A stretch of DNA of 64,000 bases from Terrimonas sp. (GTDB lineage: Bacteria; Bacteroidota; Bacteroidia; Chitinophagales; Chitinophagaceae): NCBI GenBank assembly GCA_016125075.1, contig WGMO01000014.1, forward strand, positions 62,001 through 126,000, given 5' to 3'. The translations under genes and the position numbers were made by a program. Below the pieces are notes generated by a model, which was given only the letters and a program-made list of their open reading frames with translations, searched no databases and was not told the origin of the DNA. Below, piece by piece: positions 13,627 through 34,187 of this stretch; the first letter of the stretch is position 1, and the number at the start of each line of letters is the position of its first letter.

Positions 13627-13978
13627 GGTATAACCCTGTTGGTAAGGAGCTATATCGAATCAGGATCAATAATCCCCCTTCAAAAAAGGCAGTATATGTT
13701 TAAAGGAAACACGGAAACGTTTCCGTAAAAACAGGAAACTTTGTTTTCCTGAACTGCCATGGAATATTTTAATATTCTAACTTTAATTACAGGATCTGAC
13801 TCTATTGTAAGAATGCATCGAATGACTTTTCTTATTGGGAAAATTTTTCATTAATCAGTGTAGGCTTCATTGACCTTTTTGATAATCGTGGGTAATTCTG
13901 AAGAAGGATGGCATAAAACCTGTTTCTGTAAAGTACAATCATTAAATATAAGATCTTAACCATTGCAATTTGACCATT
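13627..13978. other. Intergenic regulatory stretch before the oxidoreductase gene
   Basis: No gene was seen in these 352 bases. They hold the 16-base perfect palindrome at 13711-13726, and copies of its half-site GGAAAC stand directly repeated on each side (13705-13710 and 13734-13739). A TTTG at 13740-13743 followed 21 bases later by TATTTTAA is a weak fit to the Bacteroidota -33/-7 promoter pattern. The downstream leader is A/T-rich. Confidence 0.6.
13711..13726. promoter_or_regulatory. LacI-type operator palindrome, site A
   Basis: The sequence ACGGAAACGTTTCCGT is a perfect 16-base inverted repeat with a central CG, the usual form of LacI-family operators. Its 14-base core is repeated exactly at 16805-16818 and 33910-33923. 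It lies 252 bases before the Gfo/Idh/MocA gene start. The function as an operator is inferred from symmetry, recurrence and position. No regulator gene lies in the window. Confidence 0.75.
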
Positions 13979-15394
13979 ATGAGAAGAAGAAATTTCATTA
14001 AACAGACAGCTTCAGCTGCTGCGGCTTTTGCCAGTTATTCTATTATTCCTGCTTCAGTGCTGGGAAAATCATTTGGACGGGTCGCACCCAGCGATAAAGT
14101 GAACCTGGCCTGTTGTGGCATTGGTAACAGGGGGGGCAGTATTACACAGTCCCTGCATAAGACCGGCCTGGCGAATATCGTTGCCTTATGTGATGTTGAT
14201 ATGGGAGCGCCGCATACGCTTGAGGTGCTGAAAATGTTCCCGGATGTGCCCCGGTTCCAGGATTTCAGGGAAATGTTTGATAAGATGGGGAATAAGATTG
14301 ATGCTGTGAGTGTGGGCACTCCCGATTTCTCCCATTTTCCCATTTCCATGCTGGCCATGTCATTGGGTAAGCATGTGTATTCGGAAAAACCAATGGCGCG
14401 CACTTTTAATGAAGTGCAGCTGATGATGAATGCTGCCAAGAAGTATCACGTGGTGACACAGATGGGTAACCAGGGGCATTCGGAAGCCAACTATTTCCAG
14501 TTCAAAGCCTGGAAAGAAGCCGGGATCATTAAGGATGTTACTGCCATCACGGCCCATATGAACGGAGGACGCCGTTGGCATAAATTCGATCCTGCCATGA
14601 CCAAATACCCTGATGGAGAACCGATCCCCAAAACACTGGATTGGGATACCTGGTTAGGCACAGCCCACCATCATGATTACCAGAAGGATTTTGTAAACGG
14701 GCAATGGCGTTGCTGGTATGAGTTTGGTATGGGAGCCTTAGGCGATTGGGGCGCACATATCATCGATACCGCCCACCAGTTCCTCGATCTGGGCTTACCC
14801 TATGAGATCGACCCTGTAAAACTGGAAGGGCATAATCCTTTCTTCTTTCCGATGGCCTCCACACTGGCTTTCAAATTTCCTGCCCGTGGTGATATGCCAC
14901 CCTGTGTGATTACATGGTATGACGGGGTTAAAAACCTGCCGCCCCTTCCAGAAGGGTATGGCAGTGCTGTTGTAGACCCGAATATCCCGCCACCAAGTGA
15001 TGGGAAATTGCAAATTGATAAATTGAGCCCCGGAAAAATTATCTATAGTAAGGAACTGACATTTAAAGGGGGATCGCATGCTTCCACCTTGACGATCATC
15101 CCTGAAAAAAAGGCGAAGGAAATGCAATCAAAATTGCCCGCCTATCCTGAAACACCCTCCAACCATTTTAAAAACTTTTTGCTGTCCTGTAAGGGTGAGG
15201 AAAAATGCCGGTCTTCTTTTGATATTGCAGGACCGCTAAGCCAGGTGTTTAACCTGGGGGTTTTGGCACAACGGCTCAATGCAAAACTGATTTTTGACCG
15301 CGACAAAAAAGAGATCACCAATAACCCCCTGGCCAACCAGTTGCTCGTTGGTGCGCCACCCCGAAAGGGTTGGGAGGAGTATTATACACTTTAA
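13979..15394 (+). CDS. Tat-exported Gfo/Idh/MocA family oxidoreductase
   Basis: I chose the ATG at 13979 because it directly begins the Tat motif MRRRNFIKQTASA; an in-frame TTG three codons earlier is also possible. After the Tat signal (about 1-30) comes a Rossmann domain with the dinucleotide motif GIGNRGG, then the family motif SEKPM (Glu136-Lys137-Pro138) and the C-terminal beta-sheet domain with GDWGAHIIDTAHQFLDLG. Such proteins use a tightly bound NAD(P) to oxidise or reduce sugars, and Tat export fits a cofactor loaded in the cytoplasm. Some relatives make 3-keto sugars, which would supply the DUF1080 protein at 32483-33859. This substrate is inferred. A 77-base gap leads to the enolase-superfamily gene, and operator site A lies upstream. 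Confidence 0.9.
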   Translation: MRRRNFIKQTASAAAAFASYSIIPASVLGKSFGRVAPSDKVNLACCGIGNRGGSITQSLHKTGLANIVALCDVDMGAPHTLEVLKMFPDVPRFQDFREMFDKMGNKIDAVSVGTPDFSHFPISMLAMSLGKHVYSEKPMARTFNEVQLMMNAAKKYHVVTQMGNQGHSEANYFQFKAWKEAGIIKDVTAITAHMNGGRRWHKFDPAMTKYPDGEPIPKTLDWDTWLGTAHHHDYQKDFVNGQWRCWYEFGMGALGDWGAHIIDTAHQFLDLGLPYEIDPVKLEGHNPFFFPMASTLAFKFPARGDMPPCVITWYDGVKNLPPLPEGYGSAVVDPNIPPPSDGKLQIDKLSPGKIIYSKELTFKGGSHASTLTIIPEKKAKEMQSKLPAYPETPSNHFKNFLLSCKGEEKCRSSFDIAGPLSQVFNLGVLAQRLNAKLIFDRDKKEITNNPLANQLLVGAPPRKGWEEYYTL

Positions 15395-15471
15395 GAAAAA
15401 AAGGGTATCGGGCTTCTTGCAAAAAACCGGGCCAATGGTTGGCATGCTATCCGTGATTTCAAATTTAATGT

Positions 15472-16695
15472 ATGTATCATAACAGGCGAGCATTTATCAA
15501 TCTGATGGGTTCCCTGGTTCCCGGAGTTTTCCTGAAAGCGCCTGTGAACGGTTTACTTTCGGGGCAAGACCCCCTTTTATCAGTGGAAGGCATTACCGTT
15601 TACCTGGTCAATGTTGATAAACCCAGGAACTTTAGTCATTCAACCTGGAATAACCGGCAGCATTTATTTTTCCAGGTCCAGGTGGGTCAGCACAAGGGCT
15701 GGTCAGAAGTGCTGGCCAATAAAAATGATCCGGGTTTTGATTTTGTCAAATGGGCGGAGTATCTAAAGGCGCTGAAAGGAATGCCGGTCATGAAGGCCAT
15801 TGATTATTGCCGGGAACAAGTGTTAACAGGCGAATGGGACCACCGAAAAGCGGAACCCGCCCTGATGGCGCTCTATGATATCATGGGAAAGGCTGTCAAT
15901 AAGCCGACCATTGAAATATGGGGGCTTTCCGGAAGGAACCCCGTCCCGGCAGCATTCTGCATTCTTGAAAACGAAGTTGACCAGGCCCTGGCACAGGCCG
16001 CCATCGCCAGAGAGCAGGGATTAACCCATTTTGTCAAACTCAAGTTATTTGGCATACCGGATACTGATCAGTCACTGGTTACGGCCTTACGAAAATATTT
16101 TGGACATGAAACTTTTTTAATGGCCGATGCCAACAGGGGCTATAAGAACTGGAAAGACCTGGATGAATTATCCCTGCATATGCACGCACTTCGAAAAGCC
16201 GGGTTAAATGCGATCGAAGATCCCGCTGATTTATCAAAAGAACAATGGATCGAATTACAAAAAAAGATCGGAGACCTTGCGCTGATCCCCGACTATCCTA
16301 TGCGTCCTGCCTTTATATCCATCGATCAGTTTGATCCTGCGATGGGAACATATTTCAATATCCATCCCGATACGATGGGTACATTCCGGGAAGTGATTGC
16401 TTTAGGAAAAAAAATCAGGGAAGATCAAAGAGGTTTGATGATTGGTGACAGCAGTTTTATTGGTCCTGCCTGTACCTGCTGGCAGCAACTGGCAATCGGG
16501 CTGGGAGCTTCCTGGGTGGAAGCTATTGAAAAGCCCCAGGAATCTGATATTTTTCAGCAATGTGTGCAGCGGTCCACAACGGCAATCAACAAAAAAGGGC
16601 TGGTGGAAATTAAAGTGTTGAACCCGGGTTTTGGGTTAGTCATGGATGAAGAAAAACTCAGGTCGAAGGCAGATCGGTTTGCAAAACTCGTTTGA
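15472..16695 (+). CDS. Tat-type exported enolase-superfamily (mandelate racemase/muconate lactonizing-like) protein
   Basis: This 407-residue protein begins with MYHNRRAFINLMGS, a Tat-like RRxFI motif and a hydrophobic stretch, which is unusual because most enolase-superfamily proteins stay in the cytoplasm. The barrel motifs are intact: Lys189 and Lys191 in FVKLKLFG, and metal ligands Asp219 (MADANRG), Glu249 (AIEDPADL) and Asp274 (LIPDYPM), spaced about 25-30 residues apart as in the family. These enzymes abstract a proton next to a carboxylate, so sugar acids such as uronates or aldonates are likely substrates for dehydration or epimerisation. It follows the Gfo/Idh/MocA gene by 77 bases, so the two may be cotranscribed. 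Exact reaction is unknown. Confidence 0.82.
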   Translation: MYHNRRAFINLMGSLVPGVFLKAPVNGLLSGQDPLLSVEGITVYLVNVDKPRNFSHSTWNNRQHLFFQVQVGQHKGWSEVLANKNDPGFDFVKWAEYLKALKGMPVMKAIDYCREQVLTGEWDHRKAEPALMALYDIMGKAVNKPTIEIWGLSGRNPVPAAFCILENEVDQALAQAAIAREQGLTHFVKLKLFGIPDTDQSLVTALRKYFGHETFLMADANRGYKNWKDLDELSLHMHALRKAGLNAIEDPADLSKEQWIELQKKIGDLALIPDYPMRPAFISIDQFDPAMGTYFNIHPDTMGTFREVIALGKKIREDQRGLMIGDSSFIGPACTCWQQLAIGLGASWVEAIEKPQESDIFQQCVQRSTTAINKKGLVEIKVLNPGFGLVMDEEKLRSKADRFAKLV

Positions 16696-17021
16696 AGAAA
16701 CAGTATCCTTTTGCCTGGCCGGGTTATATAAATGTAAGTGCTTTACTACCCCTGGAGCACCATTTTTACAATCGATCGGGGCACAGCAGCTTCCCTGCTG
16801 ATACCGGAAACGTTTCCGTAAAAATCCCTTATTGCCGTTTTCAAAAGGATCAAAAACGTTTTAAATAAATTAGCTTTATAAGAGGGATCAATTTTCAGTT
16901 CATAATAGCAGATCAGCTGTTTTAACGAAGGATCTTGGGTGTAATTCCCGGCCAGTGAATAAATATTGGGCTGTTGTTGGTGGGATCCTGCCTGTTTGAA
17001 TGCTTGTCAATTAATGAAAAA
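16696..17021. other. Intergenic regulatory stretch before the Tat-unknown operon
   Basis: These 326 bases hold no convincing gene. They include operator site B at 16805-16818. A small palindrome AAAACGTTTT lies at 16853-16862, and TAGCTTTA at 16871-16878 fits seven of eight positions of the Bacteroidota -7 element, although no good -33 element stands at the right distance. A long leader would follow. Confidence 0.55.
16805..16818. promoter_or_regulatory. LacI-type operator palindrome, site B
   Basis: CGGAAACGTTTCCG is a perfect 14-base palindrome identical to the cores of sites A and C, and like them it is followed by TA and an A-rich stretch. It lies 203 bases before the start at 17022, close to the spacing seen for the other plus-strand genes (252 and 264). 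The same regulator probably controls all three. Confidence 0.75.
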
Positions 17022-18737
17022 ATGGAAAGAAGGAAATTTCTAACATGGGGTGCTACAGGTCTTTCTGTATGGCCAGTGCTTGGTTTCAGGAATTTTGGGT
17101 TTTTTAAATACAATGAGCTTCCCGAAAAACCCGATTGGTTAATTAAACTCATACAGTTAAATGACCGTTCCATCGAACCACTGCTTTCCATGCAGGTCCT
17201 GGATAAAGCTTCTGCCTATTATGGTGGATGCATGGACAGTACGGAAATTGCCACCCCGCAAAATACCGGGAATTTTATTTCAAAGGCCGCATGTGCAATC
17301 GCGAGCGCCGAATCTTCTTATTTCCGGTCACCCCGTTTATTGGAAAAAGTCAAACTCGCTGTCGACTATTTATTAAGGGTGCAGCATAAAGACGGGACCA
17401 TTGACCTGTTGGAAACAAATTTTCATTCTCCCCCCGATACGGCCTTCAGTGTAGAAAAAATTGCGCCAGCCTATGGTTTGATCAAGGCTTCGGGGGTCAA
17501 CAATGCCGATGATGTTTTGAAGTCCATCCAGCAGTATCTGCAAAGGGCAGGAGAAGCCCTGATCGTGGGTGGCATCCATACTCCCAACCATCGCTGGGTG
17601 GTATCGGCGGCGCTCAACAGGATCAATGCACTTTGGCCGGATCGACGGTATTTACAAAGAGCGGAACAATGGTTGGCCGAACATATCGATATCGACCCCG
17701 ACGGCCAGTACACTGAAAAAAGTACGGGAGGATATACGCCATTGGTCGACCATGTTCTGATCACAATTTCGGATGGTATGCAGAAACCGGAAATACTTGA
17801 TGCGGTCAGGAAAAACCTTGATATGACAATGTACTATGTCCATCCCAACGGGGAAGTTGTGACGGAGGCTTCTAACCGGCAGGACAAGGGAAGGATCGGT
17901 ACGCTGGAAAGCTATTATTTTTCCTACCGATACCTCGCATTACTGGATAACAATAGCCAATACGCTGCCATGTGCAGGCTGATTGAAAAATCCTGTTTCT
18001 CCAAACTGGTAGGTTCCCTCGATGCATTGCTTGAAGATGCCTCCCTTTGGAAAGAATTACCAGCAGCCAGTCCACTCCCCATCAGTTATGCCCGGGCTTT
18101 CCCCTATTCCGGTGTGGTAAGGATCCGGAGAGACCGATGGGATGCAACCATACTGTCCAATAACGCCGGTTGGCTCACTTTTCACAAAGGGGATGCCGTT
18201 ATACAGGGTATCCGTATCGCCGCTTCCTTTTTTGGGAAAGGGCAGTTTCAATCATCCGATATCAGGAAAGTGGGCGAAAGCTGGATACTATATCAACAAC
18301 TGGAAGGTGTGTATTACCAGCCTTATCCCAAAGACCAGATAGACCCGGAGGGTGACCTGAGTAAAATGCCCCGCTCCAACAGATCCAAAAGTGAGATACA
18401 GCATCTGGAGACGGAAATAAAAATAACAGAAACGGCGAAGGGCATCAGTGTGGATATTGAAATGAAAGGAACCGATGCGGTACCGGTGACCCTGGAACTG
18501 ATCTTCCGTCCCGGCGGGGAATTTACAGGTGTTCAACCACATGCCACAAAGGAAAATGCCTTTCTTTTCAGCGGCCCATCCGGAACGTACACCCAGGGTA
18601 AGGATACCATTTATTTTGGAAAAGGGGTCCTGGCACATAAAGCTATCCAGTTAAGAGGTGCTTTGCCAGCCATGGAGGCACCGACTGTTTACCTGACCGG
18701 ATATACACCTTTCCATCACCACCTGGAATTATCCTGA
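17022..18737 (+). CDS. Tat-exported protein of unknown function, helical-toroid type
   Basis: I took the ATG at 17022 because it starts the Tat motif MERRKFLTWGATG; the frame stays open upstream with a TTG start at 16974. I do not recognise the 571-residue family. After the signal come repeated helical segments (about 60-330) with motifs such as AVDYLLRVQHKDGTID, GGIHTPNHRWVVSAALNRI and TGGYTPLVDHVL, then a beta-rich part to the end with RAFPYSGVVRIRRDRWDATI. The layout resembles heparinase II/III-like and related toroid enzymes, but the typical His-Asn-His strand was not found. It overlaps the beta-helix gene (TGATG) and lies behind operator site B. Its place in the oxidative module and its Tat export suggest a periplasmic carbohydrate enzyme, possibly with metal. 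Confidence 0.78.
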   Translation: MERRKFLTWGATGLSVWPVLGFRNFGFFKYNELPEKPDWLIKLIQLNDRSIEPLLSMQVLDKASAYYGGCMDSTEIATPQNTGNFISKAACAIASAESSYFRSPRLLEKVKLAVDYLLRVQHKDGTIDLLETNFHSPPDTAFSVEKIAPAYGLIKASGVNNADDVLKSIQQYLQRAGEALIVGGIHTPNHRWVVSAALNRINALWPDRRYLQRAEQWLAEHIDIDPDGQYTEKSTGGYTPLVDHVLITISDGMQKPEILDAVRKNLDMTMYYVHPNGEVVTEASNRQDKGRIGTLESYYFSYRYLALLDNNSQYAAMCRLIEKSCFSKLVGSLDALLEDASLWKELPAASPLPISYARAFPYSGVVRIRRDRWDATILSNNAGWLTFHKGDAVIQGIRIAASFFGKGQFQSSDIRKVGESWILYQQLEGVYYQPYPKDQIDPEGDLSKMPRSNRSKSEIQHLETEIKITETAKGISVDIEMKGTDAVPVTLELIFRPGGEFTGVQPHATKENAFLFSGPSGTYTQGKDTIYFGKGVLAHKAIQLRGALPAMEAPTVYLTGYTPFHHHLELS

Positions 18738-18775
18738 TGGAGGATCAAAAGGCAAGAACACAAACAAAAAGCTAT

Positions 18776-19951
18776 ATGAAAATATATTCATTGATTTTAC
18801 TGGTTCCCATCCTGGCGCCATCGCTTTCTTTCGCACAAAAGGATTTCCAGAAAAAAGTTCAAACCCAGATGATCCTCGCCGAGCCTGGTGCTGTCATTGA
18901 ATTACCCGAAGGGGTATTCACTCTTACCAATACATTATCGCTGGAAGGAAAAGAACGGATCACCATCAGGGGTAAGGGAATGGATAAAACCATTTTAAGT
19001 TTTAAAGACCAGACCGATGGTGCTGAGGGTATCAGGGTAAGTGACGGGACCGATATCCTGCTGGAAGGTTTCACCGTGCAGGATGCTAAAGGGGATGCCA
19101 TCAAAACCATGCATGTAAAAGGGATCACCTTTCAGTCTGTAAAAGCAGAGTGGACGGGTATTCCTGGCCCTGAAAATGGCGGCTATGGATTATATCCTGT
19201 GCAATGTAAGGGTGTCATCATTGATAACTGCGAAGCAATAGGGGCTTCAGATGCCGGCATATATGTCGGCCAGTCAAAAGATATTATCGTAAAAAACTCA
19301 AGGGCCTTTCATAATGTGGCCGGAATAGAAATCGAAAACTCCCTGAATGCCGAGGTATTTGATAATGAAGCCTGGGAAAATACCGGTGGCATACTGGTAT
19401 TTGACCTGCCCGACCTGGTAGAGAAAAAAGGTGGACAGGTGAAGGTTCATCATAATAAAATCCACGATAATAACTATGTAAATTTTGCCCCGGTGGGTAA
19501 TATTGTAGCCACGGTTCCCAGTGGTACAGGTTTAATGATCCTTGCAACCAAAGGGGTTGAAGTATATGAAAATGAAATGCTGAATAACCAGACTGCCGGT
19601 TCACTGATCCTGAGTTACCAGACAACGGGGAGGCCCATTAAGGACCAGGAATATGATCCATTTGCTTCTGATATCTCTATTCATGATAATGTGTTTGAAC
19701 GAAAAACCGGAGGACCGGCAGGAAAGGACCTCCTGGCTTCTTTGCTGGCCGGAAAGTTTGGCGATGCCATACCCAATATCCTTTTTGACGGTATCAGGAA
19801 TCCGGGCTTGCTGGATGAAAAGGGAAAATGGAAAGAAGGGCATTGTATTGTGATCATGAATAACCAGGGGCAATCCATTGCCAATCTTGACGCCCCCAAC
19901 GGTTTCAAGCATATCACCCGGGAAGACGATGCATTTAAATGTGATAACTGA
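18776..19951 (+). CDS. Secreted parallel beta-helix repeat protein
   Basis: The 391-residue form starts at the ATG at 18776, which begins a clean signal peptide (MKIYSLILLVPILAPSLSFAQ). An ATG at 18737 overlaps the previous stop as TGATG and would add 13 residues; it may be the coupled start. The body consists of right-handed beta-helix turns with repeated pieces such as GIRVSDGTDILLEGFTVQDA, GVIIDNCEAIGASDAGIYVG and GVEVYENEMLNNQT. Proteins of this kind often stand directly beside the diheme cytochrome family encoded by the next gene, and here the two are one base apart. The family is not a proven lyase; it may bind or cleave a glycan. Role inferred only from fold and partner. Confidence 0.85.
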   Translation: MKIYSLILLVPILAPSLSFAQKDFQKKVQTQMILAEPGAVIELPEGVFTLTNTLSLEGKERITIRGKGMDKTILSFKDQTDGAEGIRVSDGTDILLEGFTVQDAKGDAIKTMHVKGITFQSVKAEWTGIPGPENGGYGLYPVQCKGVIIDNCEAIGASDAGIYVGQSKDIIVKNSRAFHNVAGIEIENSLNAEVFDNEAWENTGGILVFDLPDLVEKKGGQVKVHHNKIHDNNYVNFAPVGNIVATVPSGTGLMILATKGVEVYENEMLNNQTAGSLILSYQTTGRPIKDQEYDPFASDISIHDNVFERKTGGPAGKDLLASLLAGKFGDAIPNILFDGIRNPGLLDEKGKWKEGHCIVIMNNQGQSIANLDAPNGFKHITREDDAFKCDN

Positions 19952-19952
19952 T

Positions 19953-20993
19953 ATGTTGAAAGTTTATATTATCGCTGTAATGTTTTTTTTGATGATGGTT
20001 TCTTTTGCCATACATCCCGGCTCCACTTACCCGGAAAAACTATCGGATTGGGGTATTTTCAAAGGAAAACTTGCCGATCTGAACCCCGAGGAAGGGGTGG
20101 TGCCCTATGGATTGAATACACCATTATATACTGATTATGCCGAGAAATTACGGTTTATAAAATTGCCAAAGGGGTCTTCAGTCAACTATGTTGCAGAAGG
20201 GATGCCGGATTTTCCCGTGGGGACGATCCTGGTCAAAACATTTTATTATTCAGCGGATTTCCGGAAACCCGGTATCAATAAGCAGATCATTGAAACCCGG
20301 TTACTGGTCAAAGAGGCCAGTGCCTGGAAAGCGCTTACCTATATTTGGAATGCTGAACAAACGGATGCGGACTGGGAAGTAGCCGGTGATGAAAAACAGG
20401 TTGCATTCATCGATAAGGAAGGGGTGAGTCAGTCTGTACGGTATGTAATTCCGAACCAAAACCAATGTAAAGGTTGTCATAACCGCGATGACCGGCTTTC
20501 CCCGATTGGTCCTTCTGTTTCCCAGTTAAATGGCGATTATGTGTATGCATCGGGCAAAAAGAATCAGTTGAAATACTGGAAACGGAAGGGTATGATGCTG
20601 CAGGTGCCAAAAATTTCATCCATTCCAAGAACGGCTGTTTGGAATGACCCGGCATCCGGTGATCTGAATGCAAGGGCCAGGGCCTACCTGGCTATCAATT
20701 GCGCGCATTGTCATAGCAAAACAGGACCTGCACAAAGTTCCGGTTTGTTTTTAACAGAGCATGAAAAGGATTCAACAGCCCTGGGATTCCTGAAAACCCC
20801 CGTTGCTGCGGGAAAAGGATCAGGCGGAAGATCTTTCGATATATTACCGGGTGATGCAGAATCTTCAATAATCTGGTATCGCATGCAAACCCGTAACCCC
20901 GGCGAAAGGATGCCGGAACTGGGGAGGAACCTGGTCCATAAAGAAGGGCTCGCGTTAATCAGGGAGTGGATAAATACTATGAAAAAGCAATAA
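19953..20993 (+). CDS. SO2930-type diheme cytochrome c
   Basis: The ATG at 19953, one base after the beta-helix stop, starts a signal peptide (about 1-22); a longer in-frame start at 19878 would lie inside the previous gene and is unlikely. The mature protein has an unusual N-terminal domain (SDWGIFKGKLADLNPEEGVVPYGLNTPLYTD region) and two heme c attachment motifs, CKGCH at Cys172/Cys175/His176 and CAHCH at Cys250/Cys253/His254. This matches the diheme family that is often paired with a beta-helix protein. It probably carries electrons in the periplasm, possibly from the sugar-oxidising protein encoded upstream. Tight spacing supports one operon from 17022 to 20993. Its true electron donor is unknown. 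Confidence 0.9.
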   Translation: MLKVYIIAVMFFLMMVSFAIHPGSTYPEKLSDWGIFKGKLADLNPEEGVVPYGLNTPLYTDYAEKLRFIKLPKGSSVNYVAEGMPDFPVGTILVKTFYYSADFRKPGINKQIIETRLLVKEASAWKALTYIWNAEQTDADWEVAGDEKQVAFIDKEGVSQSVRYVIPNQNQCKGCHNRDDRLSPIGPSVSQLNGDYVYASGKKNQLKYWKRKGMMLQVPKISSIPRTAVWNDPASGDLNARARAYLAINCAHCHSKTGPAQSSGLFLTEHEKDSTALGFLKTPVAAGKGSGGRSFDILPGDAESSIIWYRMQTRNPGERMPELGRNLVHKEGLALIREWINTMKKQ

Positions 20994-21191: not shown

Positions 21192-21968
21192 ATGACGAAA
21201 AATATTATTAGTAAACATTCAATTACATCATTCCTGCTGCTTTTATGTAGTGGTATTGGAGTGATGGCCGCCCAAAAGCCAAAGCCGGCGGTACTTGTAT
21301 TTTATAAGACAGCTGCATTCTATCACAAATCAATTCCTGCGGGACTGCGCGCTATCCAGGAACTGGGCCGTGAAAATAATTTCAGCGTGGATACTACCAA
21401 TGATGCCACTCAGATCAACCTGGTAAACCTGAAGCAGTATAAAGCTGTTATTTTCCTGAGCACAACCGGTGATATTTTGAATGATGGGCAACAGGAGGCA
21501 TTTAAACAATATATCCGGTCGGGTGGCGGCTTTATGGGTATTCATGCCGCCACAGATTGTGAATATGACTGGTCCTGGTACGGGCAACTGGTCGGCGCTT
21601 ATTTCGGCGGACACCCAGCCCAGCAAACGGCAACCCTGCATATTGCCGACAAACGACACCCTTCCACCCTCCATTTACCGGATCCCTGGATACGCAAAGA
21701 TGAATGGTATAGTTTTAAATGGATGGAACCAGGATTAAACATATTAGTTACCATTGATGAAAACAGCTATAGTTTGGGGAAACTAAAGCCGATGGGTGAG
21801 CATCCCATGGCCTGGTATCATGACTTTGACGGAGGGAGGGCATTTTATACGGAATTAGGGCATACGGAAGAATCTTTTTCCGAGCCCCTATACCTGCAAC
21901 ACCTCTTAGGGGGCATACAATATACCATGGGAAAGAAACATTTTAAGAAAATGAAAAGAAAAAATTGA
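21192..21968 (+). CDS. ThuA-like domain protein, secreted
   Basis: This 258-residue protein has a signal peptide (about 1-27, ending GVMAAQ) and a single ThuA-like glutamine-amidotransferase fold. Typical family features are VLVFYKTAAFYHKSIPAGL near the start, the AVIFLSTTGD strand, and GGFMGIHAATDCEYDWSWYGQLVGAYFGGHP. ThuA-like proteins are common beside sugar oxidoreductases and DUF1080 proteins, and some have been tied to 3-keto sugar or trehalose metabolism. The reaction here is not known. It lies 198 bases after the diheme cytochrome gene and 50 bases before the PVC-type heme protein. The half-site GTTTCCG at 21161-21167 lies just upstream but has no matching left arm. Confidence 0.92.
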   Translation: MTKNIISKHSITSFLLLLCSGIGVMAAQKPKPAVLVFYKTAAFYHKSIPAGLRAIQELGRENNFSVDTTNDATQINLVNLKQYKAVIFLSTTGDILNDGQQEAFKQYIRSGGGFMGIHAATDCEYDWSWYGQLVGAYFGGHPAQQTATLHIADKRHPSTLHLPDPWIRKDEWYSFKWMEPGLNILVTIDENSYSLGKLKPMGEHPMAWYHDFDGGRAFYTELGHTEESFSEPLYLQHLLGGIQYTMGKKHFKKMKRKN

Positions 21969-22018
21969 TTTGAAATCTTAGTCTCAGCTTTCAATAATAA
22001 ACTTACAAATAAGTCCAT

Positions 22019-24265
22019 ATGCGATCCCTGCAATTTCTTTGTTCCATCCTGCTGCTTGTTTTGCTGGTCACGAACTGCAATCTTAAAAAAGACAATAAAA
22101 AACCGGTATTCAACCCGCATCCTTCCACGGCATATTTATCACCTGAAGAAAGCCTGGCAACGATGTACCTGCCGGAAGGATACCATATGGAACTGGTAGC
22201 GAGTGAACCGATGATCCAGGATCCTGTTGCCATTACCTGGGATGGAAATGGAAGGATGTATGTTGCCGAAATGTTGACATATATGAAAGATGCAGATGCT
22301 ACGGGAGAACAGCTTCCTTATAGCCAGGTGGTCATGCTGGAGGATACGGATCATGATGGTAAGATGGACAAAAGTACGGTCTTTGTCGACAGCCTTCTGC
22401 TGCCCAGGATGATTCAAAGTGTCGGGAACGAATTACTCGTCAATGAAACGAATTCCATTACGATGACCAGTTATCGGGATACGGATAGTGATGGAAAAGC
22501 GGATCTGAAGAAAGTGGTGTATCAGGATGATCACTATGTTGCCAGTGATGCCAACATGGAACACCAGCGCAGTGGTTTGGATTGGAACCTTGATAACTGG
22601 ATGTACCTGACCTACGAGCCGGTAAGGTTCCGCTATACAGCTGGAAAAATGCGTGTCGACACCCTGGCCTCGGGGGGTAACGGCCAATGGGGGCTTACGC
22701 ATGATAACTACGGCCGCTTGTTTTATTCCAATGCAGGTGGTGAGGTTCCGGTATTGGGATTTCAGATCAATCCTGTCTATGGGCGGCTGGATTTTCCAGA
22801 CCAGTTTGACCCATCATTTCAGGAAGTTTGGCCAATCATCGCCACCCCGGATGTACAGGGAGGGAATCCAAGGCTACGCCCCAATAATACCCTCAACCAT
22901 TTTACGGCTTCCTGCGGTCAATCGATTTACAGGGGTGATGCTTTGCCCGGAGATATGGTCGGAGACTATATTGTCTGTGAACCGGTAGGCCGGTTGATCA
23001 GGAGGGCGAAAGTGCTCGATATAAACGGAAAGACCCAATTGAAAAATGCTTATGACAAAGAAGAGTTCATCGTTTCCTCCGATATGAATTTCCGGCCTGT
23101 GAATTCTGCCACGGGCCCCGACGGAGCTTTGTATATCGTGGATATGTACCGGGGGATCATTCAGCAGGCGAACTGGACAAAACCGGGCTCTTTTATCAGG
23201 AAGAAAATTGACAGCCTCGGTCTCGCAAAAAATATTGACCGGGGTCGCATCTACCGGGTAGTACACGATGGTATTCAACCCGGACCCGCACCCCATATGC
23301 TGGACGAACCAACGGCAGCACTAATTCCCTACCTGGGTCATCCCAATGGATGGTGGAGAGATAATGCTCAAAGAAATATCATCATCCGGGGGGACAAATC
23401 CGTGGTGCCTGCCTTAAGTTCCATCGTGATGCGGGAAAATGGGATCAGGGAAGCGGATAACGCGCTTGCCCGTCTGCATGCTTTGTGGACACTCGAAGGT
23501 TTGGAAGCGATCGATGAAGATATCCTTTCAGGGGCCCTGAACGATCAAGACCCTCAGGTCAGGAAATCGGCAGTTTGGATCAGTGAATCTTTTCTAAAAA
23601 AGAACCCGGACAGCAGGATCCTGGATGAACTGCTGCAACTTAAAAATGACCCCAGTTACGACGTAAGAATACAACTGATGATGACGATGTATACTATCCC
23701 ATCGGAAAAAGCCAAAAATGCTGTTCAGGAATTATTGGAGCAGAACAGGAAGAATGAAATGATTGTCGGGGTAAAAGATGCTTTGGATAAAAATGATCTG
23801 GTAAAAAAGCTTTCTACCCGTTTGGGTAATTTGAATGAAAAAGAGAAACGTACCGTGCTCAACGGGGCGGTGATCTTTAAGTCGGTCTGTGCCAATTGTC
23901 ATGGTGCTGATGGAAAAGGATTTGATGTTGGAAAGGGGGTCATGGCTGCTCCTTCCCTGATCGGCGTGAACCCTTTTGATGATCAGGAAAAGGACATGGC
24001 CATCAGGATACTGTTGAGCGGGTTGAAAGGACCTGTTGCCGGCAAGACCTATCCCAGTGAAATGCCTTCCCATTCGGAGAACAGGGATAGCTGGATTGCA
24101 ACTGTTTTGAGTTATGCCCGTTTTGAATTTGGCAATCATAAAAAGGATGGGAAAGATTATTCACCTGTCGTGAAAAACGATGAAGTAAAGAAACTCAGGG
24201 AAGAAAGTAAAAACAGAAAAGGACCCTGGACCCTCGAGGAACTCAGGCAATTAAAAAAAGACTAG
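22019..24265 (+). CDS. PVC-type beta-propeller/HEAT/cytochrome c protein, probable lipoprotein
   Basis: This 748-residue protein starts with a hydrophobic signal ending VTNC, a probable lipobox. Residues about 50-400 form a dehydrogenase-like beta-propeller of the type first noted in Verrucomicrobia and Planctomycetes (PVAITWDGNGRMYVAEM, TGPDGALYIVDMYRGII). Two DxDxDG pieces (DTDHDGKMD, DTDSDGKAD) look like calcium loops. HEAT-like repeats cover about 430-590 and a cytochrome c domain with CANCH (Cys624, Cys627, His628) covers about 610-705. A family role in sugar or alcohol oxidation is often proposed but is not proven. Close to the ThuA gene and other cytochrome genes, it may be part of an electron path for periplasmic sugar oxidation. 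It converges on the GH78 gene. Confidence 0.9.
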   Translation: MRSLQFLCSILLLVLLVTNCNLKKDNKKPVFNPHPSTAYLSPEESLATMYLPEGYHMELVASEPMIQDPVAITWDGNGRMYVAEMLTYMKDADATGEQLPYSQVVMLEDTDHDGKMDKSTVFVDSLLLPRMIQSVGNELLVNETNSITMTSYRDTDSDGKADLKKVVYQDDHYVASDANMEHQRSGLDWNLDNWMYLTYEPVRFRYTAGKMRVDTLASGGNGQWGLTHDNYGRLFYSNAGGEVPVLGFQINPVYGRLDFPDQFDPSFQEVWPIIATPDVQGGNPRLRPNNTLNHFTASCGQSIYRGDALPGDMVGDYIVCEPVGRLIRRAKVLDINGKTQLKNAYDKEEFIVSSDMNFRPVNSATGPDGALYIVDMYRGIIQQANWTKPGSFIRKKIDSLGLAKNIDRGRIYRVVHDGIQPGPAPHMLDEPTAALIPYLGHPNGWWRDNAQRNIIIRGDKSVVPALSSIVMRENGIREADNALARLHALWTLEGLEAIDEDILSGALNDQDPQVRKSAVWISESFLKKNPDSRILDELLQLKNDPSYDVRIQLMMTMYTIPSEKAKNAVQELLEQNRKNEMIVGVKDALDKNDLVKKLSTRLGNLNEKEKRTVLNGAVIFKSVCANCHGADGKGFDVGKGVMAAPSLIGVNPFDDQEKDMAIRILLSGLKGPVAGKTYPSEMPSHSENRDSWIATVLSYARFEFGNHKKDGKDYSPVVKNDEVKKLREESKNRKGPWTLEELRQLKKD

Positions 24266-24346: not shown

Positions 24347-27061
24347 TTATTGAGCAATCCTGAATTGATAGGATCCCGAACCCAGTTGAATCATTATGTT
24401 GCCATCCCGGCTACCCTTGATCGTGATAGCAGGGATAGCGGATAGCGCAATGCCATTTTCCGTCACCTGCCCGGCTTCTTTTGCAGGCAGCACCACTTCG
24501 GCACGGGTGTTGGGCGGAACTGTTACTACGTAAACAACTGCCTTCTCCTCCTGCTTCCAATGGGAACGGACAAGCCCATAATAGGTTTCAAGGCTGGCAT
24601 TTACTTCCTGTAACCCTCCTCCCAAATGAGGATAAAGGATGATATGCTTATACCCTGGTCCGTCTTCATCAGTATCGATGCCTGCTATCACCCGGTACAT
24701 AAAATCTCCGATGGCGCCATAGGCATAATGGTTAAAAGAGTTCATATGCGGGTTCTGAAAACTACTGTCGGGTTTTTGTCCATCCCATCTTTCCCAAATC
24801 GTGGTGGCACCCATCTTCACCGGGTACAACCAGGAGGGATAGGTTTTTTGCATCAATAACCGGAAGGCCATATCGGTTTGGCCAAAGCGGGTCAGCACAT
24901 GACAGAGATAGGGAGTACCCAGAAAACCGGTAGTAAGATGGTTGTTGTAACTTTTAATATTATCGACCAGTCTTTGCGCGGCCTGTTCCCGGACTGTTTC
25001 CGGCAGCATGTCAAAATTCAGGGCGAGTACATAGGCGGTTTGTGTGCCAGAAACGAGTCGCCCGTTTGCGGTCACATATTCTTTTACAAAAGCATCCTTG
25101 ATTTTTTTAAGGAGTTCCGTGTATGCCGATACATCATCCGAAAAACCCAGCACCTGCGCTGTATTGATGAGTAATTGCGTGGAATGAGCATAGAAACACT
25201 GGGCGATTAAATATTTGTCAGTCACGGCAGCCCTTCCGCTATTGTCATCATCAGGCCGGTAAAACAACCAGTCGCCGAAATGAGAACCGGTATTCCACAA
25301 ATCGTTGATACTGACAGAACGGATATATTCAACCCAGGCTTTCATGCTGCTATATTGATCTGACAGCATTTTTTTATCACCGTAGGCCAGGTACATGTTC
25401 CAGGGAATGATGGTTGATACATCTGACCATCCGGCAGATCCTCCCGACTTGGGGCCGAGTACATTAGGAATAACATGGGGTACACTGCCATTGGCATATT
25501 GGTCAGCGGCCAGGTCTTTCAGCCATTTCGCGAAAAAATTATTCACGCCCATATTGAATGCGGCCGTCCTTGAAAAGACTTGGGCATCTCCGGTCCATCC
25601 TAGCCTTTCGTCGCGCTGGGGGCAATCCGTGGGCACGTCTAAGAAATTCCCTTTCTGGCCCCATTGGATATTATGCTGCAATTGGTTGATCAATGGGTCA
25701 GAAGAGGTGAAAGTCCCGGTGGGCTGCATATCGGAATAGAGGGCGACCGCCGTAAAATCATCCGGTCTTAGCGTTCCCCTGATTCCTTCCACTTTGATAT
25801 AACGGAAACCAAAAAAGGTGAAATGCGGTTCAAAAGTTTCTTCAGGATCCCCATTCAGGATATAAACAGCCGTTGCTTTGGCGGCCCGCAGGTTGTCGGT
25901 ATAAAAATTACCCTGCTTATCCAGCACTTCGGCATGTTGGATGGTAATCGAATCACCTGCCTTCCCCCTGGCTTTTAAGATCACCCATCCCACAAGGTTT
26001 TGACCAAAGTCGATTACATTTTCTCCTTTTGGAGTCACAAATATGCGTTGCGCTGTGAATGTTTCATGTTTTGTAATGGGTTCATTATAGGTGGCGATAA
26101 GATTTGAAAAAGGAAAATCACCTATCCTGACCCCGCTCCATCCTTGATCGTTGTAACCAATGCCTGTCCATCCCTTATTTTCTTTCCGGGCATCAATGGT
26201 TTCTCCATCATAGATTTCAGCACTGATGATACTCCCGGTATGGGATTTCCAGCTTTCGTCAGTGATGATGGTTTCATCATGGCCATCAGCGTAATGAATA
26301 TCAATCTGGAGTAACAGTGCGATATCTTTACCATAGATATCTTTATTTTCGACCCATCCCAGGTGCCCTCTGTACCAGCCACTGCCCAGGGTTACTCCCA
26401 ACACGTTATTTCCGTTTTGAAGGAGATCGGTTATATCATAGACCTGGTATGCTAAACGCTTATTATAACTGGTCCACCCGGGTGCCAGGTAAGCCTGGCC
26501 GATCCGTCGGCCATTGATCCGGGCTTCATACAGGCCATGAGCGGTGATATAGGCAGTAGCCCTGCTGATTTTATTCCTCGCCAGGAATTCTTTTCTGAAT
26601 AACGGGCTTGGACGATCGGATCCAGGTTCCGTATACCCCGGCATGATCCATTTTGCCTTCCAATCCGTGATGTTGAAAAATCCGGTTTGGAAGGAAGCGG
26701 AATTGCTCCAGGGAGAAACTTTGCCCAGCTGATCCCAAACCCTAACCTGCCAGGCGTATTGCTGACCGCTATGTAAAGCCTTTCCCTGGTACGGGATATT
26801 CACGGATTGGTCGGACATGATCTTTCCCGTATGCCAGACCGGTGCCTTCGTATGCCCTTTTGCGAATACTTTAATTTCGTAGGCTGTTTGAGTGAGATTC
26901 CTGCCCTCGCCTGAAAGTTTCCAGGTAAAATGAGGTTGCCGGATGTCCAGGCCAAGCGGGTTCATTCGATTTTCTGTAAGTTGTTCCCGGATAGTCATCT
27001 GTCCTTCACCCTGAAGAAACAGAAGCAGCAGACTGGTTAATAACAGATTCAATTTTCTCAT
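24347..27061 (-). CDS. GH78 alpha-L-rhamnosidase, secreted
   Basis: I chose the ATG at 27061 because it begins the signal peptide MRKLNLLLTSLLLLFLQGEGQ; the open frame continues to a TTG at 27157 without need. The 904-residue product has the GH78 order: an Ig-like N-terminal domain (about 25-130), a Bac_rhamnosid N-terminal carbohydrate-binding sandwich (about 150-330), a concanavalin-like domain, the (alpha/alpha)6 domain and a C-terminal beta-domain. The key motif TDCPQRDERLGWTGD gives Asp479, Glu485 and Asp492, the expected general acid region. It should release terminal alpha-L-rhamnose. It is the last gene of the minus-strand run, 113 bases after the second GH78 gene. Confidence 0.93.
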   Translation of the reverse strand: MRKLNLLLTSLLLLFLQGEGQMTIREQLTENRMNPLGLDIRQPHFTWKLSGEGRNLTQTAYEIKVFAKGHTKAPVWHTGKIMSDQSVNIPYQGKALHSGQQYAWQVRVWDQLGKVSPWSNSASFQTGFFNITDWKAKWIMPGYTEPGSDRPSPLFRKEFLARNKISRATAYITAHGLYEARINGRRIGQAYLAPGWTSYNKRLAYQVYDITDLLQNGNNVLGVTLGSGWYRGHLGWVENKDIYGKDIALLLQIDIHYADGHDETIITDESWKSHTGSIISAEIYDGETIDARKENKGWTGIGYNDQGWSGVRIGDFPFSNLIATYNEPITKHETFTAQRIFVTPKGENVIDFGQNLVGWVILKARGKAGDSITIQHAEVLDKQGNFYTDNLRAAKATAVYILNGDPEETFEPHFTFFGFRYIKVEGIRGTLRPDDFTAVALYSDMQPTGTFTSSDPLINQLQHNIQWGQKGNFLDVPTDCPQRDERLGWTGDAQVFSRTAAFNMGVNNFFAKWLKDLAADQYANGSVPHVIPNVLGPKSGGSAGWSDVSTIIPWNMYLAYGDKKMLSDQYSSMKAWVEYIRSVSINDLWNTGSHFGDWLFYRPDDDNSGRAAVTDKYLIAQCFYAHSTQLLINTAQVLGFSDDVSAYTELLKKIKDAFVKEYVTANGRLVSGTQTAYVLALNFDMLPETVREQAAQRLVDNIKSYNNHLTTGFLGTPYLCHVLTRFGQTDMAFRLLMQKTYPSWLYPVKMGATTIWERWDGQKPDSSFQNPHMNSFNHYAYGAIGDFMYRVIAGIDTDEDGPGYKHIILYPHLGGGLQEVNASLETYYGLVRSHWKQEEKAVVYVVTVPPNTRAEVVLPAKEAGQVTENGIALSAIPAITIKGSRDGNIMIQLGSGSYQFRIAQ

Positions 27062-27174: not shown

Positions 27175-29502
27175 TTAACGGATGATCAATTTATGATGGC
27201 CTGCCGCCAGTTCCGGAACCACAAAAAATCCATTTTCCGGTTGACCCGTAAAAGGAATGTTATCGATATACAGCGTTGGTCTTTCCGGATGGTACTGCAG
27301 GATAACTTTTGCCCGGGTATTTCCCGGAATGAACAGTGAATAGCTTTCCTCCTTTTCCGTTCTTTTACAGGAAACGATTATTTCTCCTTTGATCGTTGTA
27401 GTCTTAACGGAAACCTCTTTCAATTCGCCCAATTGCGGTTTCACCCGGAACGTATTAAAACCAGGGGTAAGGGGTTCAATGCCCATCATTTTACGAACAA
27501 TGATATTGGCAGGTGCTGCACCCCAGGCATGGTTCCAGTCAAGATTGGGTTTATACAACTTGTCCCAGGCTTCCATGGTAATGGAAGAGCCGCTACGGAT
27601 CATGTTATACCAGCTTCTTTGCCCGGTTGAATTTAATAAAGAGAGCGCATAGCTCCCTTCCTGGTTATCATAAAGTGCCTCTAAAAGAAATTGAGCACCA
27701 TATACGCTGCAGGCCATTTTACGGGTCTTGATATATGCAATGACAGTTGGGATATCTTTTTCCCGGACCAATCCAAATACCAGGGCAAACATATTGGCAT
27801 GGAGGGAAGTGTGGGAACTGCTGTCCCCGTCCCGGATTAAACCTGTTTGAGGGTCTCTGAAGATTTGTTGGAATGCCGTATAGACTTCATCGGCTTTTCT
27901 TGTATACCATAAAGCGTCGTTATCATGGCCGGTTACGGATGCAATTTTAGCCATTAAGACAAGTGCACGGTAATAAAAGGCATTGACAACCGCGTTATAA
28001 TCCTGGTAAACATAACCATCTGTTTCACCTCCGAATTCTTTTTCTTTACCAATAAAATCCCCCTTCTGCGGCCAGTCAACATTATCCCGCAGGGCATCTT
28101 TGTTGTCAAAACTTTTCGGAAAATGGATAGAAGCCAGGAAATCCGGGGTCTGTTTCCCGGTTCTTGTACTGATCAAACCATTTTCCCCGGCCAGGGGCAT
28201 CAGTAACTTTTTCTGTAATTCAGTATAAAATTCTTTCAGAAATGAATCTTCTCCGGTATACATATAGTCGTTCCAGGCAAGCAGTATATTCTGTAAGCTC
28301 CATTCTGTTGGCCAGGTGGGATAATAGATGACAAAGGCCATTGACCTGCGGGCCATACTATATTCCGGATCCACTGCATAATGCGAAAGCTGGTTGATCA
28401 GCGCATCAGCTTCATAGGGGACCCTTTCCCTGTCGCCATCGACATAATATCCCGAAAAACTCGTGGCTTTCTCCGTATACTTGCAGAGGTCCCATACCTG
28501 ATTCAGCACAGTATCGTTTGATGAAAACCAGGAAGCACTATCCTCAAAAGGATAAAAGACCATTTTTCTTTGAACCGATTGCTGATCCAGTTTTCCTTTG
28601 AAATTCCTGATCATAACATAGCGGAAAGGAAATACCTCCCCGATATAATCCGGCATTAAAACAGGATTGTTCCGGCGGTTTCTTTTTTCATTGGGCGGCC
28701 ATTGAATTGCATAGTGATGGTCCCCTTTTTCAACGAGCAAACCGATTTTTGTATAACGGATATTCCCGGTGGAGGCCATCAGTTCATACGGTCTTACCAG
28801 GGCCTCTGCAACCTCAACCCAGATGGAATCGGTCACTTCGCTGTCCAGGTGCAGTTGCAATTGCCCGAACCCGTCTTTCCCAAAATCCAGGAACCAGGAA
28901 CCTGGATCCTTTTTTATCATTTCAAGCGGTGTTTGTAAATCGGCAGTTAATGGATAGTGGGAAAATGCCTGTGATGAATCCTTAGCTTTATAATAAAAAC
29001 TGTTAATGGCAGAGAAGGAAGACGGTTCATTATTTTCATTCCATACCTGTACTTTCCAGTAATAGATCTTGTCATTGCGGAGGGGCTTTCCATTGTATTG
29101 TATTGGATTGCCGGTTGATCCTGTTTTTTTGGAATCCCAGCAATCTGCCTGGTTCTTTTCCAATAGGCCGGGGGAGGAGGCCACCAGGATCCGGAATGCT
29201 TTTTCTGTAACTATCCTTTCTTTTACCTGCCAGCTGAATACGGGCTGCCTGGAAGTGATCATGGCAAACTGGTACGCGTTCTTTTTTTGGATTGCCACCG
29301 GGAGCGGAATATCAACGGCCCTTCCATTTTTACTCACCTGGCTGGTGTGGAGAAGAAAATCTGTTCGTAATCGGAATGGAGCAGGCAGGGATTGGCCATA
29401 CAGGCTACCGGTGACCTGGAATAAAAACAAAAAAAAGAGGGTTTTGCTCATATTTGATGACTGGTTTTCAGGACGGGTTCTTGTAATTAATCTGCTTGTC
29501 AT
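27175..29502 (-). CDS. GH78-like alpha-L-rhamnosidase with variant active-site motif
   Basis: The ATG at 29502 overlaps the stop of the GH2 gene by four bases (ATGA), suggesting translational coupling. A second ATG at 29451 would begin directly at the hydrophobic signal MSKTLFFLFLFQ and is also possible. The product resembles GH78: an Ig-like N-terminal part (TSRQPVFSWQVKERIVTEKAFRI region), a sandwich domain, then the (alpha/alpha)6 domain. In place of the common DCPQRDERLGWTGD it has VDGDRERVPYEADALINQ, which keeps the Asp, Arg-Glu-Arg, aromatic and Asp positions. This marks a distinct subfamily that probably keeps activity, perhaps with another linkage preference. Length of 775 is somewhat short for a GH78 protein. 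Confidence 0.87.
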   Translation of the reverse strand: MTSRLITRTRPENQSSNMSKTLFFLFLFQVTGSLYGQSLPAPFRLRTDFLLHTSQVSKNGRAVDIPLPVAIQKKNAYQFAMITSRQPVFSWQVKERIVTEKAFRILVASSPGLLEKNQADCWDSKKTGSTGNPIQYNGKPLRNDKIYYWKVQVWNENNEPSSFSAINSFYYKAKDSSQAFSHYPLTADLQTPLEMIKKDPGSWFLDFGKDGFGQLQLHLDSEVTDSIWVEVAEALVRPYELMASTGNIRYTKIGLLVEKGDHHYAIQWPPNEKRNRRNNPVLMPDYIGEVFPFRYVMIRNFKGKLDQQSVQRKMVFYPFEDSASWFSSNDTVLNQVWDLCKYTEKATSFSGYYVDGDRERVPYEADALINQLSHYAVDPEYSMARRSMAFVIYYPTWPTEWSLQNILLAWNDYMYTGEDSFLKEFYTELQKKLLMPLAGENGLISTRTGKQTPDFLASIHFPKSFDNKDALRDNVDWPQKGDFIGKEKEFGGETDGYVYQDYNAVVNAFYYRALVLMAKIASVTGHDNDALWYTRKADEVYTAFQQIFRDPQTGLIRDGDSSSHTSLHANMFALVFGLVREKDIPTVIAYIKTRKMACSVYGAQFLLEALYDNQEGSYALSLLNSTGQRSWYNMIRSGSSITMEAWDKLYKPNLDWNHAWGAAPANIIVRKMMGIEPLTPGFNTFRVKPQLGELKEVSVKTTTIKGEIIVSCKRTEKEESYSLFIPGNTRAKVILQYHPERPTLYIDNIPFTGQPENGFFVVPELAAGHHKLIIR

Positions 29503-32240: not shown

Positions 32241-32320
32241 AAAAGTATGCTTGTAAAACTTCATTTCGGTGGATGACCGGGACACAGGTTGATGATATTT
32301 TCAGTTGACAAAAAACTTAA

Positions 32321-32368
32321 AAAGTAAATAATAATCCCTGGCTTTCCGGCGGGATTATTATTTACTTT
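32321..32368 (-). terminator. Long perfect hairpin between DUF1080 and GH2 genes
   Basis: The 18-base arm AAAGTAAATAATAATCCC (32321-32338) and its exact complement (32351-32368) enclose a 12-base loop. Read on the minus strand, the stem is followed by TTAAGTTTTTTG, so it can serve as an intrinsic terminator 114 bases after the DUF1080 stop and before the GH2 gene. A protein-binding palindrome or mRNA stabiliser is the alternative. Confidence 0.6.
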
Positions 32369-32482
32369 CCGGGATAATGTCAATATCCGGTACTTTAAGT
32401 TAGGTAAAAAATCCATCATGGTCAGGCGGCCTGCCCACTACAGGCATTAATAACTGCTGACAGTCAGATGGAGGGAAACAGG

Positions 32483-33859
32483 TTACAAGGTCTTTATTTT
32501 TATGCTTCTGTAAGACACTTCATCACCATGGTCCTGGAGCAGGATATGGCCTTCATTCCACAAACCGAAATTTTTCCATTTGTTATACTTGCTGATCGCC
32601 ACAAGATCATTGAATTCCTTTGAACCTCTTGTATACTCCAGCACTTTATAGCCATTCAGCCAGTGTTCAACACGATTGTCGGGGTAAACAAGGATGCGTC
32701 CGTGGTTCCATTCACCGATGGGTTTTATAACTCCTTTTTCGCTCTTATTACTGGCCATCATGTCATATAAGGAAGCAAGGGTCCTGTTACCGTCGCGGCC
32801 TTTTTTGGCATCCGGATGTTTGTCGTCATCCAGTACCTGATATTCCAAACCGATCGCAGATGCACCATTCACGTCATAATTTTCCTTGACAAAATATTTG
32901 ATGCCACTATTGGCGACAGGGGTCAGTTTAAAATCAAATTCGAGGTCAAATGCATGGTATTCTTTTTCCGTAACGATATCACCCCCATTGCCTTCTTGCT
33001 GCCCGTTGGAAGCCTGTACCGTTAACACCCCATCATGAATACTCCAACCTTTGTCGGGAAATGTTTTTTTGTAGGCTCCCCTCCACCCATTGGTGGTTTT
33101 GCCATCCCATAACAGGGAAAAATTATTGTATCGTTCTTCATCTGATAGGGAATTGGGGATCAAATTGGCCACATAAATATGGTCAGGAGGACTGTCTTTC
33201 AGGTCATCGGTCTGTATCCTGATATTCTTCCAGCGGATGATCTTTCCGCCTTCTGCTTTATCACCGATTTTATGTACCTGCAAGGCGATAAAACCAGCCG
33301 GAGTCATGTCATCAAACAGGGATGAAGTATGAATACCGTTGACCCAAATCCGGATCGAGTGTCCGATACATTCTACATGGAGTTTGTTCCAGGCATCCTT
33401 TTTGAAAGCTTTCTGTCCTGCCGGGTTGTAGGTTAAGGGATAGAGCCATCCTCTCCGGGCTTCGTCATAGATACCACCGGTCCAGGCCCGGTCGGAAGGG
33501 TCGATCTCCACCTGGTAACCATGAACACGGCCATTATTATAGTCTTTACTGCTTTCACTCCTGATCTGTATTCCGGAATTCATATTACTTTCCACCTTGA
33601 ACTCAAGCTCCAGAATAAAATCACCATAAGTTGCATCACTGGCTAGGAATGAGTTGGGAGTGCCCGCAACAGTCCTGCCCACAATTTCACCGTTTTCGAC
33701 CGAGTATTCAGCTTTTCCATTCAGTTGGTGCCAGCCGGAAAGATCTTTGCCATTGAATATGGAGGTCCATTTTTGGGCGGTTGATGTTACCGGGAGCCCT
33801 ATTAAATATACCGGCAAAATGAGAAAGAGGCGAAACTTTGCAAGCGTTAGATATTTCAT
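32483..33859 (-). CDS. Tandem DUF1080 (3-keto-disaccharide hydrolase-type) protein
   Basis: This 458-residue secreted protein (signal peptide about 1-28) has two DUF1080 domains in a row: about 33-215, opening with [27 protein letters not shown], and about 247-455, opening with [31 protein letters not shown]. Both have the concanavalin-like pattern of this family (for example GIQIRSES and [11 protein letters not shown]). DUF1080 proteins have been linked to cleavage of 3-keto glycosides, so a partner oxidase such as the Gfo/Idh/MocA protein would be needed. Most single-domain members are about half this length. Operator site C lies 50 bases before the start codon, directly in the promoter region. 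Activity of each copy is unknown. Confidence 0.92.
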
Positions 33860-34187
33860 TTTTTATTTTAAAAGTAAGAATAGCTTTTAGTCAAATCGTA
33901 TTTTATTTTCGGAAACGTTTCCGTAGAAAATCGAAATCGGGTTTCAAAATGTTCTAATTTGTATTTGATATAACAAAGTGATTACGATTGATTAAGGTAA
34001 GTGAATCAACACCCGGTCATTTCAGATTATCCAGTTTATTGTGACGCATTTACCGGTAGGCAGAAATACAGCATGATGATCAGCAATCCGTGTTAAAAGG
34101 CATCATAGCTGAACAGGAATCAGGTATATATTTTAAAGAAGATTTCATTTCCAATAATTCGGTTGCACGAGTCATACAAAAAATGCC
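33860..34187. other. Divergent promoter region between DUF1080 and sulfatase genes
   Basis: No gene was seen in these 328 bases, which separate divergently read genes and must hold promoters for both. Operator site C (33910-33923) stands close to the DUF1080 gene and 264 bases from the sulfatase gene. A TAATTTG at 33955-33961 is one base short of the Bacteroidota -7 pattern, so no promoter is called. Confidence 0.6.
33910..33923. promoter_or_regulatory. LacI-type operator palindrome, site C
   Basis: CGGAAACGTTTCCG is again a perfect palindrome identical to sites A and B, with the same TA and A-rich right flank. It lies 50 bases before the DUF1080 start on the minus strand and 264 bases before the first sulfatase gene on the plus strand, so it may control both directions. 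Confidence 0.75.

Follow-up and report, generated by a model that had tools for sequence, protein, structure and literature searches.

A 14-base palindrome, CGGAAACGTTTCCG, is present in three exact copies in a stretch of 64,000 nucleotides from Terrimonas sp. (bases 62001–126000 of contig C5, which has 227,833 bases; hereafter the window), and very probably serves, whichever the sign of control, as the operator of a LacI-family regulator encoded on the same contig (C5:23901–24911). The gene groups of a SusC/SusD cluster of about 90 kb are probably switched together. What was read directly from the DNA (contig C5 up to base 165,000) comprises the sites, the way they are confined to the cluster, their conservation with an orthologous regulator, and a common spacing at many promoters. 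Positions given without a contig are those of the window.

The exact copies were found at 13712–13725 (site A), 16805–16818 (site B), and 33910–33923 (site C), and site A extended to the 16-base palindrome ACGGAAACGTTTCCGT at 13711–13726. The whole genome (3,924,743 bases) held no other exact copy, and none of the reversed control word. All three copies were intergenic with respect to the window open reading frames (ORFs) and were followed by TAAAAA, TAAAAA, and TAGAAA, respectively. No other palindromic 14-mer was repeated in the window. When the window was shuffled with its dinucleotides preserved, any palindromic 14-mer occurred three times in none of 300 runs and twice in one. The likely start codons, as judged by reading the sequence, were the ATGs at 13979 (a Gfo/Idh/MocA gene), 17022, and 34188, which gave gaps of 253, 203, and 264 bases from sites A, B, and C, respectively. 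Site C lay between a divergent DUF1080 gene, 50 bases away, and the sulfatase run. An earlier interpretation of the window from its letters (the sequence-only reading) had described the three exact copies with the 16-base form, their intergenic placement before TA and A-rich DNA, and distances of 252, 203, 264, and 50 bases; all of this was confirmed, the distances to within one base. The genome search that it had proposed likewise showed only intergenic exact copies, with no wide spread in coding DNA. An imperfect second site, CAAAAACGTTTTAA (16851–16864), with a AAACGTTT core, was located in intergenic DNA 46 bases past site B and may be a product of chance. With up to three mismatches the window held one extra site, CGGAATCGTTTGCA (55061–55074; three mismatches), which precedes the ORF at 55169 and is by itself within chance, the resulting total of four sites being reached by 28 of 100 shuffles.

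No LacI-family gene was found inside the window. Pfam searches of 33 of the 35 window ORFs of at least 150 amino acids, the other two being antisense to larger ORFs, gave no regulator family, and a few of the 33 matched no family. The own genome (G000) contained six LacI-family genes, and one of them, C5:23901–24911, was on the same contig and strand as the window genes, with its start 38 kb upstream of the window. The encoded protein had a LacI helix-turn-helix (PF00356, 35.5 bits against a cut-off of 27) and a C-terminal sugar sensor resembling periplasmic binding proteins (PF13377 and PF00532, both above their cut-offs), and its best solved-structure match by sequence was CcpA (1rzr). The operator palindrome is even with a central CG, and would be bound by this protein. 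The gene after lacI encoded a short-chain dehydrogenase that matched the subfamily model NF006132, D-mannonate oxidoreductase, with 320.6 bits against a cut-off of 281 (hereafter uxuB-like). It was followed by SusC and SusD and then, towards the window on the plus strand, by GH92, GH2, Gfo/Idh/MocA, GH95, GH88, esterase, sulfatase, heparinase II/III-like, and GH28 genes. This combination of a SusC/SusD pair with carbohydrate enzymes is that of a polysaccharide utilisation locus. The weak site at 55061 was 93 kb away from lacI. Near-matches to the operator stood at the head of the cluster, at C5:23820 (67 bases before lacI), at 25082 and 25094 (overlapping, before the uxuB-like gene), and at 26255 (before susC). 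A related word, TATAAACGTTTTCA, was seen at C5:23574 (L023:3574–3587), 110 bases before the divergent Gfo/Idh/MocA gene C5:22105–23463, and is a possible further weak site of the regulon.

With up to two mismatches, 26 places were found in the whole genome, compared with 31 for the reversed control. All six places in the cluster were intergenic, as against 2 of the 20 elsewhere (Fisher p 0.00012); the other 18 were inside ORFs of at least 100 amino acids. From this coding location and the total relative to the control, genome-wide two-mismatch sites were rejected as additional regulon members. In the first 165 kb of C5, all seven AAACGTTT words were intergenic, in a region where only 9.4% of the DNA was outside the ORFs kept. 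One of the two outside intergenic places was on contig C20, where it lay between a further LacI gene and the gene divergent from it. At this locus (L028:6826–12888), CGAAAACGTTTGCG separated the LacI gene from a divergent ORF of 1003 amino acids, which was followed by one of 544 amino acids. These lengths are typical of SusC and SusD, and the locus is probably another local cluster run by a LacI-family protein.

The regulator and its sites were also compared across 294 genomes of the family, 176 of which gave a regulator match at E ≤ 1e-60. The closest matches were found in Ginsengibacter hankyongi (G045; 78% identity), a genome of the same genus group (G245; 77%), Segetibacter (L107; 75%), and Parafilimonas terrae (G007; 72%). 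Among the 30 nearest LacI loci, the own locus included, 18 had a site of at least 11/14 within 250 bases upstream, a score reached by 0.5% of shuffled regions. Such a site accompanied 16 of 18 recognition helices with ST(V/I)SR and 2 of 12 with VSK (p 0.00012; the proteins compared are related, and one VSK upstream region had just 50 bases). A recognition-helix code of SR versus SK fitted these 30 loci and was rejected on account of own-genome SR paralogues with other palindromes or none. G045, G245, and G007 had seven, five, and four listed sites, respectively, all 16 of them intergenic, in clusters with many common orthologues. In G045 and G245 a site was found before each of lacI, the dehydrogenase gene, and susC. 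In G007 lacI and the dehydrogenase gene were each preceded by a site, as were the dehydrogenase gene and susC in Segetibacter, where the head of the cluster was compared. The place of site C was also occupied in two relatives: in G007 by a site between a DUF1080 gene and a sulfatase run starting with a DUF1961-type gene, and in G245 by a site between a divergent GH78-like gene and a sulfatase run. The ThuA-like orthologue of G045 had a site of its own. The 16-mer was present in 14 of the 294 genomes, compared with 5 for the reversed control, and its surroundings were inspected in five of the 13 other genomes (G045, G060, G106, G228, and G245).

The distance from the operator to a −7-like box was shared by many promoters. 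The Bacteroidota −7 consensus is TAnnTTTG. When 29 operator-to-gene directions from four genomes were analysed (30 with the overlapping site 25082, which was left out), a box starting 31–33 bases past the operator and matching at least 5/6 consensus positions was found in 15 (control mean 4.9, maximum 8), and at 4/6 in 24. Since the spacing had been noticed before it was tested, the control took the best window anywhere in the cyclically shifted sequence, over 300 runs. When each operon class was represented by a single promoter, the counts were 7 of 16 at ≥5/6 (0 of 1000 controls) and 12 of 16 at 4/6 (1 of 1000 controls). Site C had a candidate box on each side: TAATTTGT for the sulfatase run (33955–33962, plus strand, 31 bases past the site, 4/6 positions) and TACTTTTA for the DUF1080 gene (33869–33876, minus strand, 33 bases, 5/6 positions). 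A third candidate, TAATTTGG, was located 32 bases past the weak site (55107–55114, plus strand, 5/6 positions). A canonical −33 box, sought as TTG 17–23 from the −7-like box, had a candidate in just 4 of 30 directions. If the −7 box is placed as in Bacteroides, the operator centre would be near −53, immediately before the −33 region. One spacing at unrelated operons suggests contact with RNA polymerase and hence activation; on this sequence pattern, the odds that the regulator acts as an activator appear about even.

Several proposals of the sequence-only reading were thereby strengthened and others modified. Its LacI-type operator was supported by a LacI regulator whose orthologues, in two or more genera, have similar sites before their own genes and the adjacent ones. 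The shared regulon was supported by good intergenic sites, nearly all of which fell in the cluster, and by the occupied place of site C in the two relatives. A LacI-family gene near other copies, for which it had suggested looking, was found in C5:23901–24911, with near-matches before it and its neighbours. It had correctly noted that no regulator is in the window and had proposed action from elsewhere; the candidate does lie outside the window but is not remote, being the first gene of this very cluster, in the same orientation. In addition, more than the three units then named seem to belong to the regulon, which takes in lacI, the uxuB-like gene, and susCD. The operator-to-start distances, then described as a consistent geometry, stood as distances; the telling spacing is rather that from operator to −7 box, outside which sites A and B fall.

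In the proposed mechanism, the C5 regulator would probably sense a uronate-type breakdown intermediate and would coordinate its own gene, the uxuB-like gene, and susCD, together with the glycoside-oxidising genes (sites A and B, and DUF1080) and the sulfatase run behind site C. At most promoters its place of action would be directly before the −33 region, with activation somewhat more likely than a block to RNA polymerase. C3 oxidation, hydrolysis, desulfation, and uronate catabolism would in that case be under a single control. The binding, the effector, and this place of action at most promoters are inferred. Overall, a LacI-family activator of a Bacteroidota polysaccharide cluster of about 90 kb, docked at a fixed distance (about −53) before the −7 box of at least seven operon classes in four genomes, with the A and B operons wired in by perfect operators, was given a probability of roughly 0.45.

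A number of results weigh against the proposed mechanism as a whole. The two-mismatch count of the genome was not above that of the reversed control. The 15 of 29 directions came from a four-genome promoter set that is partly homologous, G045 and G245 belonging to the same genus. No −7 box at 31–33 was found for two of the three original sites (A and B), the own lacI promoter, or one more class, and the own lacI promoter had a −7-like TATATATTG about 20 bases past the operator. In 62 other loci the box was at 31–33 in 6 of 58 directions (control mean 2.4, maximum 7). In 18 closer-homologue loci plus Segetibacter, which was counted in both sets, it was found in 2 of 29 (control mean 1.1), and at 4/6 in 7 of 29 (control mean 4.3). 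On these two wider counts a general Bacteroidota spacing rule was rejected; the 31–33 spacing belongs to the close orthologues and is weak or absent in more distant homologues. No listed site preceded susC in G007, and none preceded lacI in Segetibacter. In addition, other own-genome LacI proteins with the SR helix had other palindromes or none upstream, and two C20 LacI proteins shared SISTVSRAL with the C5 protein, so that cross-binding is possible. Separately, two more distant homologues (L184:2966 and L185:16067) had a lacI promoter with a TATATTTG box 16 bases past the operator, as if these regulators blocked their own promoter.

The closest competitor differs from the proposed mechanism in sign only and overlaps with it: the same regulator could be a plain LacI-type repressor that is released by a uronate-type ligand. 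Most LacI-family factors bind DNA when free of ligand (PMC4052901), and the position of TATATATTG makes autorepression plausible at the own lacI promoter. A blocker, however, needs no fixed distance, whereas the operator ended 31–33 bases before a −7-like box at many unrelated operons, and repression is considered a serious contender with somewhat less than even chances. It is unlikely that another LacI-family protein of the same genome, such as a C20 paralogue, is the main binder of sites A–C. Six such genes are present, both C20 proteins carry SISTVSRAL, and CGAAAACGTTTGCG is upstream of one of them; the good sites, however, are grouped near the gene of the C5 regulator, and in relatives the cluster is found together with the C5 orthologue and the sites. 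Finally, three copies arising by chance or as a dispersed repeat with no regulatory role would be in keeping with the shortness of the word and a near-match count at background. The shuffles and the genome-wide search, with only three genome copies, led to the rejection of a chance origin. The near-matches are moreover intergenic in the cluster, sites precede related LacI loci and recur in the clusters of relatives, and sites A, B, and C have, by eye, nothing in common in their flanks but TA and A-rich DNA. This explanation is highly improbable.

The genes behind the sites would join glycoside oxidation with desulfation. Behind site A, on the plus strand, were a glycoside 3-dehydrogenase-like Gfo/Idh/MocA dehydrogenase (13979–15394; PF01408 and PF19051; NF058561 BT_2158_fam at 292 bits, below the cut-off of 750) and an enolase-superfamily protein (15472–16695; PF13378). 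Site B preceded a plus-strand gene (17022–18737) whose protein had no Pfam or NCBIfam match at the thresholds used and no PDB match at E ≤ 0.01; it has 571 amino acids and, by eye, a Tat-signal-like N-terminus. It was followed on the same strand by a parallel beta-helix protein (18737–19951; PF13229 and TIGR03805), a protein with weak similarity to planctomycete cytochrome c (19878–20993; PSCyt1, PF07635 at 20.3 bits, below the cut-off of 22), a ThuA-like protein (21192–21968; PF06283), and a protein with DUF7133, HEAT, and cytochrome c domains (22019–24265; PF23500, PF13646, and PF00034). The DUF1080 gene divergent from site C (32483–33859, minus strand; PF06439) belongs to the 3-keto-disaccharide hydrolase family, in which the 3-ketotrehalose hydrolase BT2157 is among the members characterised (PMC9007349). 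The plus-strand run behind site C (34188–54984) comprised sulfatase, DUF4962/heparinase II/III-like, GH28, PhoD-like, GH106, GH115-like, and FGE-type genes by Pfam. In G007, G021, G045, and G245, homologues of the A protein at E ≤ 1e-60 had at most 42% identity, and no homologue of the B protein was found at E ≤ 1e-40; therefore, the A and B operons, with their perfect operators, appear to be additions specific to this lineage. The sole other own-genome match of the B protein (L202, G000:C18:22867–24426; 42% identity) was about 7 kb from a LacI paralogue (G000:C18:31644–32651) that is 47% identical to the C5 regulator, a hint that this type of protein and this type of regulator travel together.

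Among known systems, the nearest are the LacI-family uronate regulators of Bacteroides, UxuR, UxaR, KdgR, and UxmR (PMC3878776). The UxuR group shares with the present system the family, the phylum Bacteroidota, the link to uronate catabolism, and the D-mannonate oxidoreductase-like gene after the regulator, as in uxuRBA (PMC3878776). The likeness to UxuR (BT1434) is one of family and gene neighbour. Unlike in uxuRBA, the third gene here is susC, and the regulator gene stands first in a large cluster with SusCD and sulfatase genes; the order regulator–uxuB–uxuA was absent at this locus, and no search for uxuA elsewhere was made. The operators of CcpA and PurR are central-CG palindromes with AA and TT arms, like CGGAAACGTTTCCG, which itself was not found in the literature searched. 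Those two proteins are described as global or purine regulators, whereas the C5 regulator appears confined to one cluster.

In a survey of the LacI family, 1173 of 1303 factors had an even palindrome with a central CG, and autoregulation was reported for 72% (PMC4052901). The even central-CG palindrome and the site before the own lacI are those of such local regulons, whereas more than 75% of the surveyed sites were 30–140 bases before the start codon, compared with 203–264 for sites A–C (PMC4052901). Some β-1,4-xylan systems are run by LacI-family regulators, and the same source describes a regulator with a LacI-type sensor and an AraC DNA-binding domain (PMC12125979). Given those xylan systems, clusters of this sort under LacI control have precedents. 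No paper in the literature searched brought together a LacI-family activator with TonB-dependent and sulfatase promoters of Bacteroidetes. The common spacing to the −7-like box, which suggests activation, sets the present case apart from the usual local LacI regulons. The analysis puts forward a probable switch for a large cluster that acts on sulfated glycans, and links desulfation, the oxidation of glycosides, and uronate catabolism with a single regulator. Should the activator geometry prove true, it would offer a simple handle for predicting the targets of this regulator in Chitinophagaceae and a testable departure from the repression that is customary in the family. The system is best described as a local LacI-family regulon of a familiar type, real and well supported, with a possibly unusual activating geometry.

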